Shown piece by piece: positions 29,386 to 64,000 of a stretch of DNA of 64,000 bases (positions are counted from its first letter, which is position 1; each line of letters begins with the position of its first letter). A program made the position numbers and the translations under genes. This DNA comes from Henricia sp. BOLD:AAB3569 (taxonomy: Eukaryota; Echinodermata; Asteroidea; Spinulosida; Echinasteridae), in the NCBI GenBank assembly GCA_037783545.1, contig JBBELK010000060.1, positions 3,038,001-3,102,000 of the forward strand. The letters run 5' to 3'. Under the pieces are notes generated by a model. It searched no databases. It saw nothing but the letters and a program-made list of their open reading frames with translations, and was not told where the DNA came from.

Positions 29386-29910
29386 CTACTGCTCATGCCC
29401 AGTTAGACCACATGTACAATGTAGCGTGTGAACAAATTCTTTCTGGCAACATAACACATGTTTAGTGAAGTGTATGTACATGTATGTGGCTTCGAGCATG
29501 TGCAGATGCATGATACTGCGTGCTCTGGCCAGTACAGTGAACTGCTGTTGGCTGTATTGTTTCGAGCACTCTGGGTGATCAAGCAAGTGTTGTCTTATAG
29601 CAGATGTGCATTCGGGCTGTGTGGCAGCTTTGCAAGCGTTCTTGCAGACAGGCGACAGCTGTTTGCGGGAAGCAGGCAAGTTGCTGCGGATGGAGGATTG
29701 AACATGCTGTTTAATGCGATCCGCCAGTCGTTGAGACGTACACCCTACGTACCGAGCTTCACATCGGCACTGAAACTCATAAATAACATTGTTAAGTTGT
29801 GTGTTAGGTAGTACGTCTTTACGGACTGCCGGAAGTATCTTGCGCGCAGTGAATATTACACGTGGCTGAACGGTGTTACGGTAAAACCTAGACCCATAAA
29901 AAAAGCTCAA
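29386..29910 (-). pseudogene. Penelope-like element 3' remnant (GIY-YIG endonuclease region)
   Basis: A 174-codon minus-strand frame contains VIYEFQCRCEARYVGCTSQR then LADRIKQHV and SAIRQHLLDHPEC. The pattern Y-x-F-x-C-x-C, YVG, an arginine-rich helix and a downstream H/C cluster matches the C-terminal GIY-YIG nuclease of Penelope-like retroelements. The reverse transcriptase part is absent upstream, so this is a truncated copy. Confidence 0.7.
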
Positions 29911-47200: not shown

Positions 47201-50200
47201 AATTTATCCTTTGCAAGAGTCAAGTGACAGCCTTTAAATAAAGCATTGTAATATACAGCACTGCTAATGTAACAATCAGAGAGACTCTCACTGGGTTTAT
47301 TGCCTATGGTCTAATTTTTTAAAAAGCCCTAGAGAGTTACTGCAACATTCTTCAAGTTTACTTGCTTTCCCATTGGACTTTTTAAGGCATGTTCCCATTG
47401 GACCTTCTTTTCTGCTGCCTCGCGGTACCATTCCTTCGTGTAATCTTCCCATTTGGCCCAGCAGCATAACGAAAACATAAAAAAAAAAATGTACATACCG
47501 GTACACAGGGTTCTCCCCACGTACAAACGTGCGTATCGGCCCGATACGCTGAAATTCCGACCCGATACGCAGGAAAAATTGCCGATCAAAAAATTCAGCT
47601 CCCGATACGCACAACAAAAAATCAAAAATATCACACATGGTGCTGCTAAAAAATACAATAAAATTACCAGACATAAATTCTCTCTCGTGGAAAAAGAACC
47701 ACAGAGAATTCATGGCAAAAAAATACTTCATTCTGATTCGCACGGCCGACCAAAAACAGCTCTCGATACGGTACGGCTGGCCCGGTCCGATCCCCCGGTG
47801 CGCGTGCTGGTCCACGGGCGCCGCTGCACGTGAAATTCCCTGCACGTACGTACACATGTTACCGACCCGGAAGTATATTGTGTCCAACCTCAGCTTGTGT
47901 GTAATATACGTGCATAGCCATACACACATCTGGTATCCGACTGCGGCCCCAGACTGGCTCGGCCCCAAACTCGGCCCCAGACCAACTCGGCCCCCAATTG
48001 CCATGTGTACAAACTCGGCCCCAGACCAACTCGGCCCCCATTGCCTTGTGTACAAACTCGGCCCCAGACTGACTCGGCCCCAATTGCCTTGTGTACAAAC
48101 TCGTACCCAGACTGACTCGGCCCCCATTACATTGTGTACAAACTCGGCCCCAGACTGACTCGGCCCTAATTGCCTTGTATACAAACAAGATGAAAAAATG
48201 AAAAGAATTTTAAAGATTTATTTTTTTTAAACAAAAAAATTCATCTGCACCAAAACAATCTTAAACTGAGTTAAAGAATTCATAACAAGCCCTTCAAGTT
48301 CAGGACCCCAGGATAGCTCTAAAATGCACCAGAAAGCTTTTAAGTGTTTACAGTGAATTTAATGATATTCTCATTCAATGCTGAACATTTAAAAGGTACG
48401 GTACCAGAGCTGCCAACCCTCCCGGATTTTGCAACAGATTCTTCGGAAAATGACTAATTTGGTGAGTCCTGACATGGATAAAAACCCTCCTGGATTGTCA
48501 ATTGACAACCTTGGAGATTTTTAGATGTGTTTGGAGTCACGGAATGAACCTGTTTTCCCAGATGTCTTCCCCAAAATTCGGGAGGGTTGGCAGCTCTGCG
48601 GTACATACATGTACATGTACACGTAGTATCAAGTCTTTATACATGTAACTAGTGGGTTTCGTTTTTCGTTTGGCAAATCGGTTAAATGTTCCATCCTTGT
48701 TTCCTGTTTGGCTTGGAGTAGAATTGCGAAATTGTATATAACTAAACAGATGCACTGCAAAATGGCAGCCTCCAAGTCCGTACACAATAGTCCAATACAG
48801 CACGTGCCACTGACTACATGTACAAACATTACAGACTAAAACCACTACAAACACCATATGGTGAAGGCACACACGAAAGCTTTCCTCACATGTGTACCGG
48901 GGCCACTGCACAGAAGCTCAGTAATTGGATTATTCAGGAAACTACATGTATGTCCAGCTTCAGTGGCAAAATTTTGGTTTAGAAATCAATAACCTCATGG
49001 AACTCATATTATGTGTGATTAATACATGTGTAGCCAGTGGTAGCTGGGCACACATCAAACTGCAGTACAGTGTACCGGTATGTCCTTTTTTGTTTGTAGT
49101 CCTATAGGATACCAGTGTACAAATTGTACTGTGGGATTGAGGTCTACATTTTGCACATGTACATAAATGTGCATAAATTTTAACGATTTTCATACTACCA
49201 GTATACATGACATGTACATGTACATGCACTTGTTTGTTCAATCTCTTAAATTTGCTACCAGTACATACATGTACCGGTACGTACTGTATGCACAATATAA
49301 TGTGCAATGTGCATGATACGCAACACTACATGTACTACATGTAGACCTATTGTACACCACGCACACTACCACCACATTTACGCAAAGGTATACACGTGTA
49401 CACAGATCATGTACCATACACAGGGGCATGGACAATATTTTAAAAAGGAAGCAGTTCACTCTGTCTCAGATTTTGTTCGAATTTCAAAGGGCACTGCAGC
49501 TAAACTTGTTCCAAATGTGTATTAGCCTCATGAAATTTTAAGAGGGCAGTGCACGTTGGGGAATTTTGCCTCCGACTAACACCGTGTTTACACTCGAACC
49601 GGCAAAGGTGGATACAACCCAGCATTTTTATTGCGACCGCAAAACTACACCTTGTTTACACTACACCTTGATTCGGCTTCAACTCGCCTTCAGAAACCGC
49701 AAAAGTCACCACTAATTGTAACTGCAGCGAATGCGTGAGCTATTAGGTGTTGCGGCACTACATGTAGTGCCAGATTGGTTAATTAAATCTACTACACGGC
49801 GGGCACTGCCCTAAGGACACTCAAATTACCGAATCTGTATTCGGGTAGCGTTTACACTACGAGCAACATTGACAATTAATTGCGGGGGTTCAACCCTACC
49901 CTTAAAGGTGACTTGAAAAAGGCGAATGAGACCCAGGTCTGATCTGCCCTTTTCAATTCACCTTTTGCGTTTACACTTTGCGCCTACCCGGCTTCAACTC
50001 TCCTTTTTAGAAATTGCGGAGTTTGATTCGGCAAAGGTGAAGCGAGTGTAAACGGGCCTATAAAAGTAGCTTGAAAGTGACACCAAATAAGCAGGGCTAT
50101 GTCTTTTAAAGGGCCCATGATTAGGGATTTTTATCAATGAAATCTATGCTATGAAACTACTCTACTCAGTTAGTCATAAAAATCCTATTTGAAGCTTGTT

Positions 50201-53200: not shown

Positions 53201-56200
53201 TCCTTTAAATTTAGTACAGCGTGGGTCTGTTTTATTTCAACTGGACAGCCGGACCATTGGGAAGGCTTTCCAGCTGGCCCGAGACCATTTCAACTGTCAT
53301 TTGGCCAACGGACCAGTGCTAATTCGAACGCTGAAGATGCCGAGTCAACAGATCTGTTACACTAATACTAACACGGTTTCCCAAGATGCCGTGTTAACAG
53401 ATCTGTTACACTAACATCAACACTAACACGGAGCACAGAATTGCGCCCTCACTCACTGCAATTTGCGGTTCTGCGCACTATTTTAAACACACACTAACAC
53501 GCCGTGTTAACACGGCGTTTGTTCTGAGGTCACAATTCTGATTGAGATAACAGATCTGTTAACACTAACACGTAACACTAACACGTAACACACATAGAAT
53601 TGTGACCTCACCCAGTGTGCCCAGCCAGATTTATTCTTTTAGTTTTTGTAATATGATTGTAAAATATTGAAATTTCTTTACTGTTCGAGATATTATTTTG
53701 ATTAATTTAAGAAATTTTGAAATTTTTATCCAGTGTTTACCAGTTTTGGATCACGCTCCCCAACAAAGCCGGTGTGTTCCTTTAAACGGAATTCTTTATA
53801 GATTTTCGGAAAGACTACCCGGTACCATGCACGGACACCCACTGAGACCCCATGCGCTAAAACTATTGGACAACTCTGATTTTTAAAAAGTTTTTCCTTA
53901 GTAAATTCATGACACTTTTCCCTTGTAATTGTGCATTTTTATAATGACACTAAAATTTTTACGTGGTTTATGTCATAACAAGGAAATACGGTATTGTTTT
54001 AGTTGATGTCACAACTGGAATTTGACGAAAGTAATTATTGGAATCGATAGCTTGGATGATTTTAGGGTACAATTATAGAATGCAGGGCCCACTATACTTC
54101 AATCTCAACGTCTCCGGAGACGGAGTCACGCACTTGCACATTCATATATTGCGCCCTCTTTAGAATGAACTGTTTAAGCCTGTTCATAGGGCGGCACTCC
54201 CCCCCCGCGAAGCCCCGCCCCCATTTTTCTGTTACCTGGAATTAGTTTTATCCTTATATTATTCTATTGAACGCGGGATGCACATCAAGAAGGGATAATA
54301 AATGACGTGTTTCTGTCGTCACAGATCCGAATTTAGATCACAAACTGTGTCACTATTCGTTTTTTCCTCAACGTTTTTTTTTTTTTTAAATTTTCCCACC
54401 ACTTACACGTTCACTTCCACCTCCAAAATTTCCTTTTTAAATTCATGACGATCTCTCTTCCGGCCGGTTGAACAAAAAAGGATTTAAAAAACCGCAAACG
54501 CAAGTGACGCGCGACGGGCATTCACCTTCTTTTATGTCTTTTTGTTTTTATCGGTACCGAGTGGGGCACCTGTACTCCCTACGCGAAAGGCCGTACTAAC
54601 TGCGTGTAAACAAAGTACCCGACTATGTTAGACGGATTTAGTCAACAGAGGGCGACATCAGTTCGTTTTCCTTGGGAGCGGCCCGTGATGCAGTGGTACA
54701 TGTACATACATGATGTAAATACATGAAAGGTATCGTAAAAATTTTGCAGTGCGGCATTTTTTTTTGCTAGGGCGGTCGTGATTTTGCTCGGGCGGTCGAG
54801 ATTTTGCGCGGGCGGCACAAAAATTAGGTAGGGTGGCACGCCCTAGCAAAACATCTCGTGCAGAACCTTGGTCTCCCGTCTCCGCGTCTCCAGAAACCCT
54901 CTTGCCCAGAATAATAGCAGCACGAGAGGGATTTTAAAAAAAAAGGTAAATAAAGACCGGAAACTGTTGCGTTCTTCGTTTCAAACTACTTAGGTGTCCA
55001 GAGGGCGCTTTTCTTTTAATTCCCGACGGGCTACCCCCTCTAAATCAAAACATTCACAGCAGTCTCCGGTCTCCGCGTCTCCAGAAAACCCTCTTGCCTA
55101 AAATAATCGCGGCACGAGAGGGATTTAAAAAAAAAAGGTAAATAAAGACCGGAAACCGTTGCGTTTTTCGTTTCAAACTACTTAGGTGTCCAGAGGGCGC
55201 TTTTCTTTTAATTCCTGACGGGCTACCGCCCTCTAAATCAAAACATTCACAGCCGTCTCCCGTCTCCGCGTCTCCAGAAACCCTCTTGCCCAGCATAATC
55301 GCGGCACGAGAGGGATGTTTTAAAAAAGGTAAATAAAGACCGGAAACCGTTGTGTTCTTCGTTTCAAAGGAAACCGTTTGCGTTCTTCGTTTCAAAGTAC
55401 TTCGGTGTCTAAAGGGCGCTTTTCTCTTAATTCCCGACGGGGTACACCCCTCGCAATCAAAACATTCACAGCCGTCTCCCGTCTCCACGTTGTACTTCGG
55501 AGATTTTTTATAAAGGGAAATAAAGTCCGAAAACCATTCCGTTAACGAAGTCACGGCAAAGTGGTGCTTTCGACCACCAGAGGGCGCTCATCTCCTGTCT
55601 CCCGTCTCTGCTAGAAGTTCGATCACATCGTCTCCAGTCAACTTTGAAAAGGTGCTGTCGCGTGGGCCCTGTATTCTAGTATAGTTACTCGAATTTTAGA
55701 ATATGAATACTTACATACATTTCCGTCGCAAAGGCTTAGTTTTAGAGAAAAATCACGTAAAAAATATTGCATACCGGTTAGCCCAGGTTGGACGTCGTCT
55801 TCATTGCATTACGAGTGACGTCCAGGTTACGATGTCTCTAAACAGGGGGACTGAAAATTCCATATAATTTTTAAGCTATATTACCTTTTAATGGACGTCG
55901 AATTTATGTCCATATATGCTTGACGTCTTCATTTACAGGAACGGGAGGTTTAAATGTCGTATATACCAAATTTGATGAAAAAAAGTGAAATCTAAGGCAC
56001 AACCTAACGTTAAAGTTCAGAGAAATAAATAACAGCTGCCGTCGCGTCACGCTTCGTGAAGTTTGGATAGGCTTGCGCGTGCGGCGCCACGATTTCAGGC
56101 ACGCAATGCGCCGAGGCCATGGCCTAGTTCAGTTGCGACGCGCGCACGGCCGGCCGGTACGCGGGACTACTACGCGCGCGGTGAGAACAAAATAAGCTGA

Positions 56201-59969: not shown

Positions 59970-60855
59970 CTATAGCCACTGCGTAGTTTTAAATCCGTGG
60001 CATCACCATAAATACGCATGGACGTGTACGTGTACGCGACGTGCAATTTAAATTCTCGAAACAATGACGAATCGTACCCGACGATTAACGATAACGTCCG
60101 GACATGCATTCGGGTAACTTCGGGAACCTTCGAAAAAAAGGGAGGAATTTCTCCTGTTTCAGTATGGCGGATTTGCGGTTGCCGGACCTTCAAATCAGTC
60201 TTCACTAGTGATTTAATTGTTTGGTCCGGTAATCGGACTACGCGCAAGCCGCACGTACCACAGGGCACTTAGCCTTTTGTCAAGGCCTCCTGAATTTGGG
60301 CGATTTCGTGACTTGAACAGAGTCTGTGCAGGCACATTAGCCCGTCCCGTGTCAGCGAGCTGGGTACAAGCGAAGTCTACGGGTGCATCCCACTAAATAT
60401 ATATGCAAAGATCCCTCCGCAAGCTCATGAATATTTTGTATGCCCTTCAAATGTTTCTATATTAGAGAGAGTTAAGAGCTAATCGAGTGTAATCTAGTGT
60501 AGAAAGTGCCGATCATCATGATTTTGGGTATTGTTTCTTTCAACTGTTAGTAAATTTGACTGCCTAGCTCGTAAAAGGTGGCTCTATTTTGCCCAATAGC
60601 GTATGGGAGCTGACACAGACGGACATATTCCGGCATCCCTAAGTGAAGTGGTGTCCAGTAAGTTTTCCCGCCACCCCTAATTTCCCCAAAATACACACTC
60701 TGGCTGCCCCAACCATCTCCCTCCACCCTCCAAAGGCAGTTGACACGTACAGATAGACATGGCACCTGGAAGAAACGAGGATCGTGGTGCTGTTTCTTGC
60801 AAAATGTGCCCAAGTGTATTCTCTCGAAGTAGCTTCTCTCGTCCTAAATAGTCCA
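59970..60855. other. Spacer before the tRNA array
   Basis: No gene recognised. 60640-60855 carries eroded matches to the array spacer (AGTGAAGTGGTGTCCAGTA; CGTCCTAAATAGTCCAGC), suggesting an older unit that has lost its tRNAs. Confidence 0.5.
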
Positions 60856-60890
60856 GCTGTCAAGAAACGGTAGAATGAAGACGAAATTGT

Positions 60891-60963
60891 GGTCGGTTAG
60901 CTCAGTCGGTAGAGCGTCGTGCTGATAACGCGAAGGTCGTGGGTTCGAGCCCCATACTGACCA
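60891..60963 (+). tRNA. tRNA-Ile (GAU), unit 1
   Basis: A 73-nt cloverleaf: acceptor GGTCGGT/ACTGACC, D arm GCTC...GAGC, anticodon arm TCGTG-CTGATAA-CGCGA, T arm GTGGG-TTCGAGC-CCCAT. TTTTT at 60973-60977 terminates. The anticodon is GAU. Confidence 0.96.
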
Positions 60964-61066
60964 GCTACCACCTTTTTGGCCTTGGCACACAAAGTGAAGT
61001 GGCGTCCAGTAGGTTCCTCTCCAGTCGTCCTAAATCGTCCAACTTCAAAAAGCATGCAAGCTAGTT

Positions 61067-61083
61067 TGCCGGAACCCGGGATT

Positions 61084-61133
<50 letters not shown>

Positions 61134-61139
61134 TACGGC
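61067..61139 (-). tRNA. tRNA-Phe (GAA), unit 1
   Basis: Cloverleaf with anticodon arm TCAGA-CTGAAGA-TCTGA and T arm CCTGG-TTCAATC-CCGGG. The acceptor GCCGTAA/TTCCGGC has one mismatch (5:68) shared by all units. Minus-strand T5 stop at 61051-61047. Confidence 0.94.
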
Positions 61140-61236
61140 ACATCTGTTTAACTTTCCAGAGTAAATCGCACGAACTTATAAGGTCAGTTTTAGATGTACT
61201 CGCTGTCAAGAAACGGTAGAATGAAGACGAAATTGT

Positions 61237-61309
61237 GGTCGGTTAGCTCAGTCGGTAGAGCGTCGTGCTGATAACGCGAAGGTCGTGGGTTCGAGCCCCA
61301 TACTGACCA
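61237..61309 (+). tRNA. tRNA-Ile (GAU), unit 2
   Basis: Identical to unit 1. Confidence 0.96.
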
Positions 61310-61412
61310 GCTACCACCTTTTTGGCCTTGGCACACAAAGTGAAGTGGCGTCCAGTAGGTTCCTCTCCAGTCGTCCTAAATCGTCCAACTTCAAAAAGCA
61401 TGCAAGCTAGTT

Positions 61413-61429
61413 TGCCGGAACCCGGGATT

Positions 61430-61479
<50 letters not shown>

Positions 61480-61485
61480 TACGGC
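61413..61485 (-). tRNA. tRNA-Phe (GAA), unit 2
   Basis: Identical to unit 1. Confidence 0.94.
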
Positions 61486-61582
61486 ACATCTGTTTAACTT
61501 TCCAGAGTAAATCGCACGAACTTATAAGGTCAGTTTTAGATGTACTCGCTGTCAAGAAACGGTAGAATGAAGACGAAATTGT

Positions 61583-61655
61583 GGTCGGTTAGCTCAGTCG
61601 GTAGAGCGTCGTGCTGATAACGCGAAGGTCGTGGGTTCGAGCCCCATACTGACCA
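61583..61655 (+). tRNA. tRNA-Ile (GAU), unit 3
   Basis: Identical to unit 1. Confidence 0.96.
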
Positions 61656-61758
61656 GCTACCACCTTTTTGGCCTTGGCACACAAAGTGAAGTGGCGTCCA
61701 GTAGGTTCCTCTCCAGTCGTCCTAAATCGTCCAACTTCAAAAAGCATGCAAGCTAGTT

Positions 61759-61775
61759 TGCCGGAACCCGGGATT

Positions 61776-61825
<50 letters not shown>

Positions 61826-61831
61826 TACGGC
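61759..61831 (-). tRNA. tRNA-Phe (GAA), unit 3
   Basis: Identical to unit 1. Confidence 0.94.
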
Positions 61832-61928
61832 ACATCTGTTTAACTTTCCAGAGTAAATCGCACGGACTTATAAGGTCAGTTTTAGATGTACTCGCTGTCA
61901 AGAAACGGTAGAATGAAGACAAAATTGT

Positions 61929-62001
61929 GGTCGGTTAGCTCAGTCGGTAGAGCGTCGTGCTGATAACGCGAAGGTCGTGGGTTCGAGCCCCATACTGACC
62001 A
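61929..62001 (+). tRNA. tRNA-Ile (GAU), unit 4
   Basis: Identical to unit 1; the flank changes from GACGAAATTG to GACAAAATTG from this unit on. Confidence 0.96.
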
Positions 62002-62104
62002 GCTACCACCTTTTTGGCCTTGGCACACAAAGTGAAGTGGCGTCCAGTAGGTTCCTCTCCAGTCGTCCTAAATCGTCCAACTTCAAAAAGCATGCAAGCT
62101 AGTT

Positions 62105-62121
62105 TGCCGGAACCCGGGATT

Positions 62122-62171
<50 letters not shown>

Positions 62172-62177
62172 TACGGC
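62105..62177 (-). tRNA. tRNA-Phe (GAA), unit 4
   Basis: Identical to unit 1. Confidence 0.94.
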
Positions 62178-62274
62178 ACATCTGTTTAACTTTCCAGAGT
62201 AAATCGCACGGACTTATAAGGTCAGTTTTAGATGTACTCGCTGTCAAGAAACGGTAGAATAAAGACAAAATTGT

Positions 62275-62347
62275 GGTCGGTTAGCTCAGTCGGTAGAGCG
62301 TCGTGCTGATAACGCGAAGGTCGTGGGTTCGAGCCCCATACTGACCA
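62275..62347 (+). tRNA. tRNA-Ile (GAU), unit 5
   Basis: Identical to unit 1. Confidence 0.96.
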
Positions 62348-62450
62348 GCTACCACCTTTTTGGCCTTGGCACACAAAGTGAAGTGGCGTCCAGTAGGTTC
62401 CTCTCCAGTCGTCCTAAATCGTCCAACTTCAAAAAGCATGCAAGCTAGTT

Positions 62451-62467
62451 TGCCGGAACCCGGGATT

Positions 62468-62499
<32 letters not shown>

Positions 62500-62523
62500 T
62501 TCTCCCAACTGAGCTATTACGGC
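62451..62523 (-). tRNA. tRNA-Phe (GAA), unit 5, D-stem variant
   Basis: The D-stem strand GAGC is GAAC here, giving a C-A mismatch. Possibly impaired. Confidence 0.85.
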
Positions 62524-62620
62524 ACATCTGTTTAACTTTCCAGAGTAAATCGCACGGACTTATAAGGTCAGTTTTAGATGTACTCGCTGTCAAGAAACGG
62601 TAGAATGAAGACAAAATTGT

Positions 62621-62693
62621 GGTCGGTTAGCTCAGTCGGTAGAGCGTCGTGCTGATAACGCGAAGGTCGTGGGTTCGAGCCCCATACTGACCA
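62621..62693 (+). tRNA. tRNA-Ile (GAU), unit 6
   Basis: Identical to unit 1. Confidence 0.96.
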
Positions 62694-62796
62694 GCTACCA
62701 CCTTTTTGGCCTTGGCACACAAAGTGAAGTGGCGTCCAGTAGGTTCCTCTCCAGTCGTCCTAAATCGTCCAACTTCAAAAAGCATGCAAGCTAGTT

Positions 62797-62813
62797 TGCC
62801 GGAAACCGGGATT

Positions 62814-62863
<50 letters not shown>

Positions 62864-62869
62864 TACGGC
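62797..62869 (-). tRNA. tRNA-Phe (GAA), unit 6, T-stem variant
   Basis: T stem 3' strand is CCGGT instead of CCGGG, opening the outermost T-stem pair. Confidence 0.85.
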
Positions 62870-62966
62870 ACATCTGTTTAACTTTCCAGAGTAAATCGCA
62901 CGGACTTATAAGGTCAGTTTTAGATGTACTCGCTGTCAAGAAACGGTAGAATGAAGACAAAATTGT

Positions 62967-63039
62967 GGTCGGTTAGCTCAGTCGGTAGAGCGTCGTGCTG
63001 ATAACGCGAAGGTCGTGGGTTCGAGCCCCATACTGACCA
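62967..63039 (+). tRNA. tRNA-Ile (GAU), unit 7
   Basis: Identical to unit 1. Confidence 0.96.
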
Positions 63040-63143
63040 GCTACCACCTTTTTGGCCTTGGCACACAAAGTGAAGTGGCGTCCAGTAGGTTCCCTCTCCA
63101 GTCGTCCTAAATCGTCCAACTTCAAAAAGCATGCAAGCTAGTT

Positions 63144-63160
63144 TGCCGGAACCCGGGATT

Positions 63161-63210
<50 letters not shown>

Positions 63211-63216
63211 TACGGC
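63144..63216 (-). tRNA. tRNA-Phe (GAA), unit 7
   Basis: Identical to unit 1; the spacer has one extra C. Confidence 0.94.
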
Positions 63217-63313
63217 ACATCTGTTTAACTTTCCAGCGTAAATCGCACGGACTTATAAGGTCAGTTTTAGATGTACTCGCTGTCAAGAAACGGTAGAATG
63301 AAGACAAAATTGT

Positions 63314-63386
63314 GGTCGGTTAGCTCAGTCGGTAGAGCGTCGTGCTGATAACGCAAAGGTCGTGGGTTCGAGCCCCATACTGACCA
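63314..63386 (+). tRNA. tRNA-Ile (GAU), unit 8, anticodon-stem variant
   Basis: Anticodon stem 3' strand is CGCAA instead of CGCGA, giving a C-A mismatch. Confidence 0.88.
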
Positions 63387-63489
63387 GCTACCACCTTTTT
63401 GGCCTTGGCACACAAAGTGAAGTGGCGTCCAGTAGGTTCCTCTCCAGTCGTCCTAAATCGTCCAACTTCAAAAAGCATGCAAGCTAGTT

Positions 63490-63506
63490 TGCCGGAACCC
63501 GGGATT

Positions 63507-63556
<50 letters not shown>

Positions 63557-63562
63557 TATGGC
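63490..63562 (-). tRNA. tRNA-Phe (GAA), unit 8, acceptor variant
   Basis: Acceptor 5' strand is GCCATAA, giving two adjacent acceptor mismatches. Probably impaired. Confidence 0.8.
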
Positions 63563-63659
63563 ACATCTGTTTAACTTTCCAGAGTAAATCGCACGGACTT
63601 ATAAGGTCAGTTTTAGATGTACTCGCTGTCAAGAAACGGTAGAATGAAGACAAAATTGT

Positions 63660-63732
63660 GGTCGGTTAGCTCAGTCGGTAGAGCGTCGTGCTGATAACGC
63701 GAAGGTCGTGGGTTCGAGCCCCATACTGACCA
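63660..63732 (+). tRNA. tRNA-Ile (GAU), unit 9
   Basis: Identical to unit 1. Confidence 0.96.
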
Positions 63733-63835
63733 GCTACCACCTTTTTGGCCTTGGCACACAAAGTGAAGTGGCGTCCAGTAGGTTCCTCTCCAGTCGTCCT
63801 AAATCGTCCAACTTCAAAAAGCATGCAAGCTAGTT

Positions 63836-63852
63836 TGCCGGAACCCGGGATT

Positions 63853-63902
<50 letters not shown>

Positions 63903-63908
63903 TACGGC
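63836..63908 (-). tRNA. tRNA-Phe (GAA), unit 9
   Basis: Identical to unit 1. The start of a tenth unit flank runs to the window end. Confidence 0.94.
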
Positions 63909-64000
63909 ACATCTGTTTAACTTTCCAGAGTAAATCGCACGGACTTATAAGGTCAGTTTTAGATGTACTCGCTGTCAAGAAACGGTAGAATGAAGACAAA

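Follow-up and report, generated by a model that had tools for sequence, protein, structure and literature searches.

Tandem arrays of transfer RNA (tRNA) genes are an already known kind of locus, and here we set beside the described cases an array of paired isoleucine and phenylalanine tRNA genes that enters the last 3 kb of a 64,000-nucleotide stretch from Henricia sp. BOLD:AAB3569 (contig JBBELK010000060.1, referred to as C60, positions 3038001-3102000; hereafter the window). The Xenopus 3.18-kb repeat of tRNA genes (tDNA), which is likewise tandem and animal, reportedly has a kilobase-scale unit with more genes than the one described here. In Entamoeba, as at this locus, the tandem units are short, with up to five tRNA genes, and one of them ([VF]) also pairs Phe with another isotype; Entamoeba, however, is a protist, almost all of its tRNA genes lie in 25 kinds of array, and its intergenic regions contain short tandem repeats and have about 80% A+T, unlike those found here (PMC2652664). 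Outside Entamoeba, homogeneous tDNA repeats in tandem are called uncommon in the report on the human 1q23.3 repeat, which resembles the present array in being animal, in having tRNA genes on both strands and in its units being 98% alike, but which has a 7.3-kb unit with five genes in 9-43 units per allele, against 346 bp, two genes and roughly 450 units here (PMC4041453). A satellite on maize chromosome arm 4L, 91.95 kb long, is likewise named after a tRNA, although its host is a plant (PMC10335936). Chromosome 4 of zebrafish also harbors a very large animal tRNA cluster, with 5,227 predicted genes; its clusters are described as near-completely CpG-methylated, whereas the array presented here has no excess of CpG mutations (PMC11574265).

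What sets this locus apart is a 346-bp, two-gene convergent unit, repeated roughly 450 times at a single place in an animal genome, with an isoleucine tRNA that carries G34; among the matches listed from the open-licence literature, we found no report on an Ile(GAU)/Phe array. We propose, with a probability of about 0.6, that the locus is a nuclear tRNA-gene satellite, amplified to roughly 450 copies and evolving in concert, with selection acting on its products and at least part of it probably being expressed. The structure and size of the array, the conservation of its control elements and its variant frequencies were read directly, and it is from these that we argue about transcription, dose effect and decoding.

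Results

The sequence analysed comprised the window and the next 300 kb of C60, 364 kb altogether, from an assembly of 740.7 Mb in 2,104 contigs, and all array counts concern this single locus within the 364 kb. Pieces of C60 to the right of the window are labelled L001, L002 and so on (L001:9243 is C60:3111243). The tRNA genes were called with ARAGORN and with the Rfam tRNA model RF00005 (gathering score 29), the A-box and B-box search motifs were entered by hand, and the array-wide unit consensus was built from the nine leftmost units.

In the window, ARAGORN finds nine tRNA-Ile(GAT) genes on the plus strand alternating with nine tRNA-Phe(GAA) genes on the minus strand, from 60891 to 63908, and no tRNA besides these 18; RF00005 matches the same 18 sites with 54.9-68.6 bits, and Tandem Repeats Finder (TRF) gives a single array at 60856-64000, to which no strand is assigned, with a period of 346, 9.1 copies and 99% matches. 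The three programs thus agree with the initial annotation, which had seen nine near-identical units of opposed Ile(GAU) and Phe(GAA) genes. Its unit length of 346 bp holds for eight of the nine full units (60856-63970), unit 7 having 347 bp; these units start at 60856, 61202, 61548, 61894, 62240, 62586, 62932, 63279 and 63625, and are followed by 30 nt of a tenth. Their alignment has 9 variable columns out of 347, four of them within tRNA genes. Within 60000-61250, Rfam reports these two tRNAs and nothing else up to E 1, with no third structured RNA in the unit.

The first unit illustrates the arrangement. The tRNA-Ile(GAU) gene (60891-60963, plus strand), 73 nt long and without an encoded CCA, is followed by a T5 terminator of the RNA polymerase III (Pol III) type at 60973-60977 (plus strand), and the tRNA-Phe(GAA) gene (61067-61139, minus strand), with a U-C mismatch at acceptor pair 5-68, has its own T5 at 61047-61051 (minus strand). 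Both runs, read from the sequence, lie between the two genes, just as the initial annotation had described, and array-wide four or more consecutive T stand behind 449/449 Ile-type and 438/439 Phe-type genes. About 36 nt upstream of the mature Phe, a TATA-like CTTATAAG at 61175-61182 (minus strand) is putatively functional. ARAGORN and RF00005 place the other Ile(GAU) genes, all on the plus strand, at 61237-61309, 61583-61655, 61929-62001, 62275-62347, 62621-62693, 62967-63039, 63314-63386 and 63660-63732 (units 2 to 9), and the other Phe(GAA) genes, all on the minus strand, at 61413-61485, 61759-61831, 62105-62177, 62451-62523, 62797-62869, 63144-63216, 63490-63562 and 63836-63908. In the unit alignment, single substitutions are seen in the D stem of Phe in unit 5, the T stem of Phe in unit 6, the anticodon stem of Ile in unit 8 (position 42) and the acceptor stem of Phe in unit 8. 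The unit length is close to two nucleosome repeats, and 97 bp separate the divergent gene starts of adjoining units, which may bear on chromatin phasing.

That the array leaves the window and is larger than its visible part had been foreseen; it runs on along C60, from 3098856 to 3262685, over 163,830 bp, with all units in one orientation. ARAGORN makes 888 calls in it, of which 449 are Ile-type (447 Ile(GAT), 2 Ile(TAT) and none AAU) and 439 Phe-type (428 Phe(GAA), 7 Phe(AAA) and 4 unassigned on the Phe strand). The two-tRNA unit is therefore present in roughly 450 copies, and the window shows only about 2% of the array. Among 462 BLAST pieces, the 430 that span at least 330 aligned bases have a mean identity of 99.25% to the nine-unit consensus, the lowest being 93.4%. 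The 364 kb contain no N, and within them ARAGORN finds no Ile or Phe tRNA beyond the array.

Both edges of the array carry marks of its history. Beside the left edge, a decayed remnant of the inter-gene spacer (window 60641-60664, plus strand) matches unit positions 137-160 at 22 of 24 bases, with a score of 38 compared to 28 for the best of 50 shuffles. The right end stops near unit position 132, directly after the last Ile gene, the terminator of which is reduced to four T. The array is interrupted by a long terminal repeat (LTR) retrotransposon of 7,953 bp (C60:3111243-3119195, that is, L001:9243-10000 to L002:1-7195), whose two 614-bp LTRs are 100% identical, which makes it a recent insertion; its minus-strand open frames include one of 356 codons (gag-like by eye), one of 1,425 and one of 196 codons (SGNH-hydrolase-like by eye). 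There are also two 403-bp elements, identical to each other and bounded by GCGT...ACGC (L001:3996-4398 and L010:5806-6208), which contain a tRNA-like stretch in which GGTTCGAATCT resembles a B box. They sit at the same unit position and are flanked by the 9-bp target duplication TTGCCGGAA, and the simplest reading is a single insertion, then copied by duplication of the array.

Three weak tRNA-like candidates were set aside: a partial tRNA-model match about 4.4 kb beyond the right end of the array (L017:5067-5128, 33.7 bits, no ARAGORN call), a match further right of the array (L025:850-914, 30.0 bits, Thr by ARAGORN), and a second ARAGORN Thr call that falls below the RF00005 gathering score. 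A tRNA-derived short interspersed nuclear element, of which dispersed copies with a non-tRNA body and a tail would be expected, was likewise rejected as an origin of the repeat: the 364 kb have no Ile or Phe call other than those in the array, and the flanks a single 23-nt partial match.

The units are similar without being identical. The 429 full units comprise 137 distinct haplotypes, and runs of consecutive haplotypes recur over up to 10 units, whereas the longest such run in 20 shuffles was 4. At the right end, the final nine full units have on average 10.2 differences from the consensus (each indel base counted), compared to 1.1-4.4 in the other bins, and the variants 28G and 318A are common to the first two units and several of the last. 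Pairwise divergence scarcely depends on distance, with values of 3.5-3.9 up to 150 units apart against an overall mean of 4.1, and homogenisation is therefore not strictly local. With head-to-tail units of complete tRNA genes, homogeneity and block duplication, the locus has the hallmarks of a tandem tRNA gene array, or tRNA satellite, and it has the appearance of a genuine one that evolves in concert.

The internal control elements are retained in nearly all copies, the A box in 447/449 Ile-type and 433/439 Phe-type genes and the B box in 437/449 and 430/439, respectively. The motif TTATAAG occurs at most 60 nt upstream of 417 of the 439 Phe-type copies, and in 313 of the 429 full units both tRNAs are at consensus.

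The phenylalanine gene encodes tRNA-Phe(GAA) in 9/9 copies in the window and 428/439 array-wide. Its cloverleaf is complete, but the acceptor stem is not fully paired, since pair 5-68 is U-C and no array copy varies at either position. As every copy has this mismatch, the founder must have carried it. The seven Phe(AAA) copies would be undesirable if expressed, because an inosine-edited form could misread Leu UUA, as described for such an anticodon (PMC5372738).

With standard numbering applied to the tRNA-model alignment, the isoleucine tRNA has G15-C48, U30-G40 and T54-A58, and its anticodon loop is C32 U33 G34 A35 U36 A37 A38. In a survey of eukaryotic tRNAs, U30-G40 is given as an Ile signature and G15-C48 as a signature of tRNA-Ile-RAU (PMC9023262). 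Both signatures of the cytosolic RAU class are thus present, which indicates that this is the ordinary cytosolic AUY reader in its body, with G in place of A at the wobble position. The canonical A34 of tRNA-Ile(AAU) is found in none of the 449 copies (447 GAU, 2 UAU). A nuclear copy of mitochondrial tRNAs could be considered, as these also have GAU and GAA anticodons, but the A and B boxes and the cytosolic Ile signatures would speak against such an origin.

A strict Ile(AAT) pattern from the D arm to the anticodon stem, which the usual animal Ile(AAU) genes would be expected to fit, has 0 matches in the 740.7-Mb assembly, although a gene with one changed motif base would escape it. Recast with GAT, the same pattern matches 435 copies within the 364 kb. 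A further pattern for Ile-GAT, allowing for a longer D loop, has 0 matches.

Two of three open reading frames (ORFs) tested from C60 match 7tm_1 (rhodopsin-type receptors; E 1.8e-38 and 4.3e-17), and the COX1 of the assembly is open except for 11 in-frame TGA codons, which fits the animal mitochondrial code; the two together point to an animal host. Contig C955 has three COX1 copies with a spacing of 16,221 bp and is apparently a head-to-tail concatemer of the mitochondrial genome that arose in assembly. Elsewhere in the window, three ORFs out of the five on its ORF list were compared with Pfam, without a match for any of them. An open frame at 29386-29910 (minus strand) looks by eye like the GIY-YIG region of a Penelope-like element, with no Pfam match at 0.001. 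TRF also reports a tandem repeat of about 192 bp with 2.6 copies (54871-55368), and a 43-bp minisatellite with 5.1 copies (47966-48186) lies within opposite-strand open frames of 306 and 201 codons.

Discussion

In this study, we have described an array of about 164 kb that would have grown from a founder locus in which a single cytosolic RAU-class tRNA-Ile, with G34, faced one tRNA-Phe(GAA). Repeated unequal exchange and block duplication may have brought this pair to roughly 450 copies, and concerted evolution would keep them homogeneous. Judging from the A and B boxes that lie inside it and from a T5 terminator of its own, each gene probably acts as an independent Pol III unit, so that the convergent transcripts need not overlap or collide. 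Selection on the total output would then keep most copies intact and limit the spread of damaged ones, which in turn makes it probable that at least part of the array is expressed. Expression would raise the dose of two G34 tRNAs, and the Ile(GAU) product would decode AUC directly and AUU through G-U wobble, with no editing of A34 to inosine involved.

The case for selection rests on how far the variants have spread. Substitution types are about equally dense in the two parts of the unit (45 per 146 gene sites and 71 per 200 spacer sites in the 462 pieces), but the commonest gene substitution is found in at most 7 copies, whereas spacer variants reach 190. Sites with a variant in at least 8 copies number 0/146 in genes and 14/200 in spacers (Fisher 0.0005), although this cut-off is post hoc, having been picked once the gene maximum of 7 was known; with at least 15 copies the figures are 0 and 7 (p 0.023), and with at least 5 copies 7 and 22 (p 0.049). 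This amounts to moderate evidence that damaged tRNA copies are held back from spreading.

Several observations weigh against our proposal. Variants in at least 2 copies occur at 27 gene and 37 spacer sites, which is no difference (p 1.0), a rank test across all variants is not significant (p 0.59), and several of the high-frequency spacer variants are linked, so that the sites are not independent. The U5-C68 mismatch may weaken tRNA-Phe. In free-energy folding, which is uninformative here, the two tRNAs do not stand out clearly from shuffled sequence (z -1.19 and -0.58), and the minimum-energy fold of tRNA-Ile is not a cloverleaf. As to homogeneity, the bin of lowest divergence is the left one, which is partly built in, since the consensus was made from the nine leftmost units. 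To these must be added the state of the large zebrafish tRNA clusters, which are described as methylated, with most of the predicted genes lacking accessibility (PMC11574265).

The zebrafish clusters bear on the possibility that the locus is a mostly silent, heterochromatic satellite, in which a once-active pair was amplified by recombination alone and has no role in translation; the clusters on zebrafish chromosome 4 seem to be in such a state. Such a satellite would account for the extreme copy number, for the satellite-like unit length and homogeneity, for the mismatch fixed in Phe and for the outcome of the rank test, and the 91.95-kb tRNA satellite array of maize offers a precedent (PMC10335936). 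It does not sit well with the ceiling of 7 copies on gene substitutions while spacer variants reach 190, nor with the almost complete retention of boxes and terminators. CpG sites are not faster mutating either (11/38 compared to 34/132, p 0.68), so the footprint of germline methylation expected from a silenced array is absent; many invertebrates methylate their repeats little, which weakens this argument. On balance, we regard silence as possible but unlikely, with a chance of around one in four. Much further down we place the idea that the tRNA genes serve as a chromatin boundary or as an element of nuclear organisation, tRNA production being secondary. This has been proposed for the human 1q23.3 tDNA repeat, barrier activity being described for tDNA and CTCF binding for the 7.3-kb human repeat (PMC4041453), but a boundary would not by itself require hundreds of copies, and we find it very improbable here.

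Least probable of all is that the assembler expanded, collapsed or misjoined a small true array. Units that are 99% alike invite such errors, and long arrays are often wrong in their exact length in assemblies, so the exact copy count could be off. An artefact would, however, have to produce 137 haplotypes among 429 full units, diverged units at the right edge, a left edge that adjoins a decayed remnant, and three insertions at distinct places (the LTR element and the two 403-bp copies), all in 364 kb without any N.

The proposal of an amplified, selected and partly expressed satellite leaves the anticodon of the isoleucine tRNA to be considered. The initial annotation had seen the oddity of the locus in the pairing of isotypes and in its compactness; that nuclear genomes of animals normally spare GAU, and the U5-C68 mismatch of Phe, went unmentioned there. 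In eukaryotic Ile(AAU), A34 is edited to inosine. The GAU anticodon has been described as missing in eukaryotes (PMC8007984), and genomes with A34 are described as normally lacking G34 in the box concerned, large tRNA gene sets such as those of cow, cat and zebrafish providing exceptions, the significance of which is treated as unknown (PMC5372738). Ile-GAU is nevertheless reported in human, other primates and D. willistoni (PMC9023262), and tRNA-Ile-GAT is implied in Schistosoma mansoni (PMC2770079). A cattle Ile-GAT was discarded as a nuclear precedent, the gene concerned being mitochondrial (PMC10763252). The tRNA-Ile-GAU of human and other primates, like that of the array, is a nuclear animal tRNA-Ile with G34, but the human one has an unusual C54-A58, whereas the array Ile has the standard T54-A58 and hundreds of copies (PMC9023262).

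A bolder step would be that tRNA-Ile(GAU) has replaced the inosine-edited Ile(AAU) as the reader of AUC and AUU, supplied together with tRNA-Phe from one giant array; we consider this possible but doubtful. If true, the replacement would reverse the eukaryotic choice of A34 in the Ile box. The Ile(GAU) array either coexists with an A34-Ile, in which case it departs from the sparing rule on a large scale, or has taken its place, and its hundreds of homogeneous, selected-looking Ile(GAU) genes make it a natural case for testing the choice between A34 and G34. As the array offers two Pol III genes in roughly 450 copies that can be aligned at a single locus, it could also help to reveal the mutations that a tRNA gene tolerates and the way in which tDNA satellites expand.

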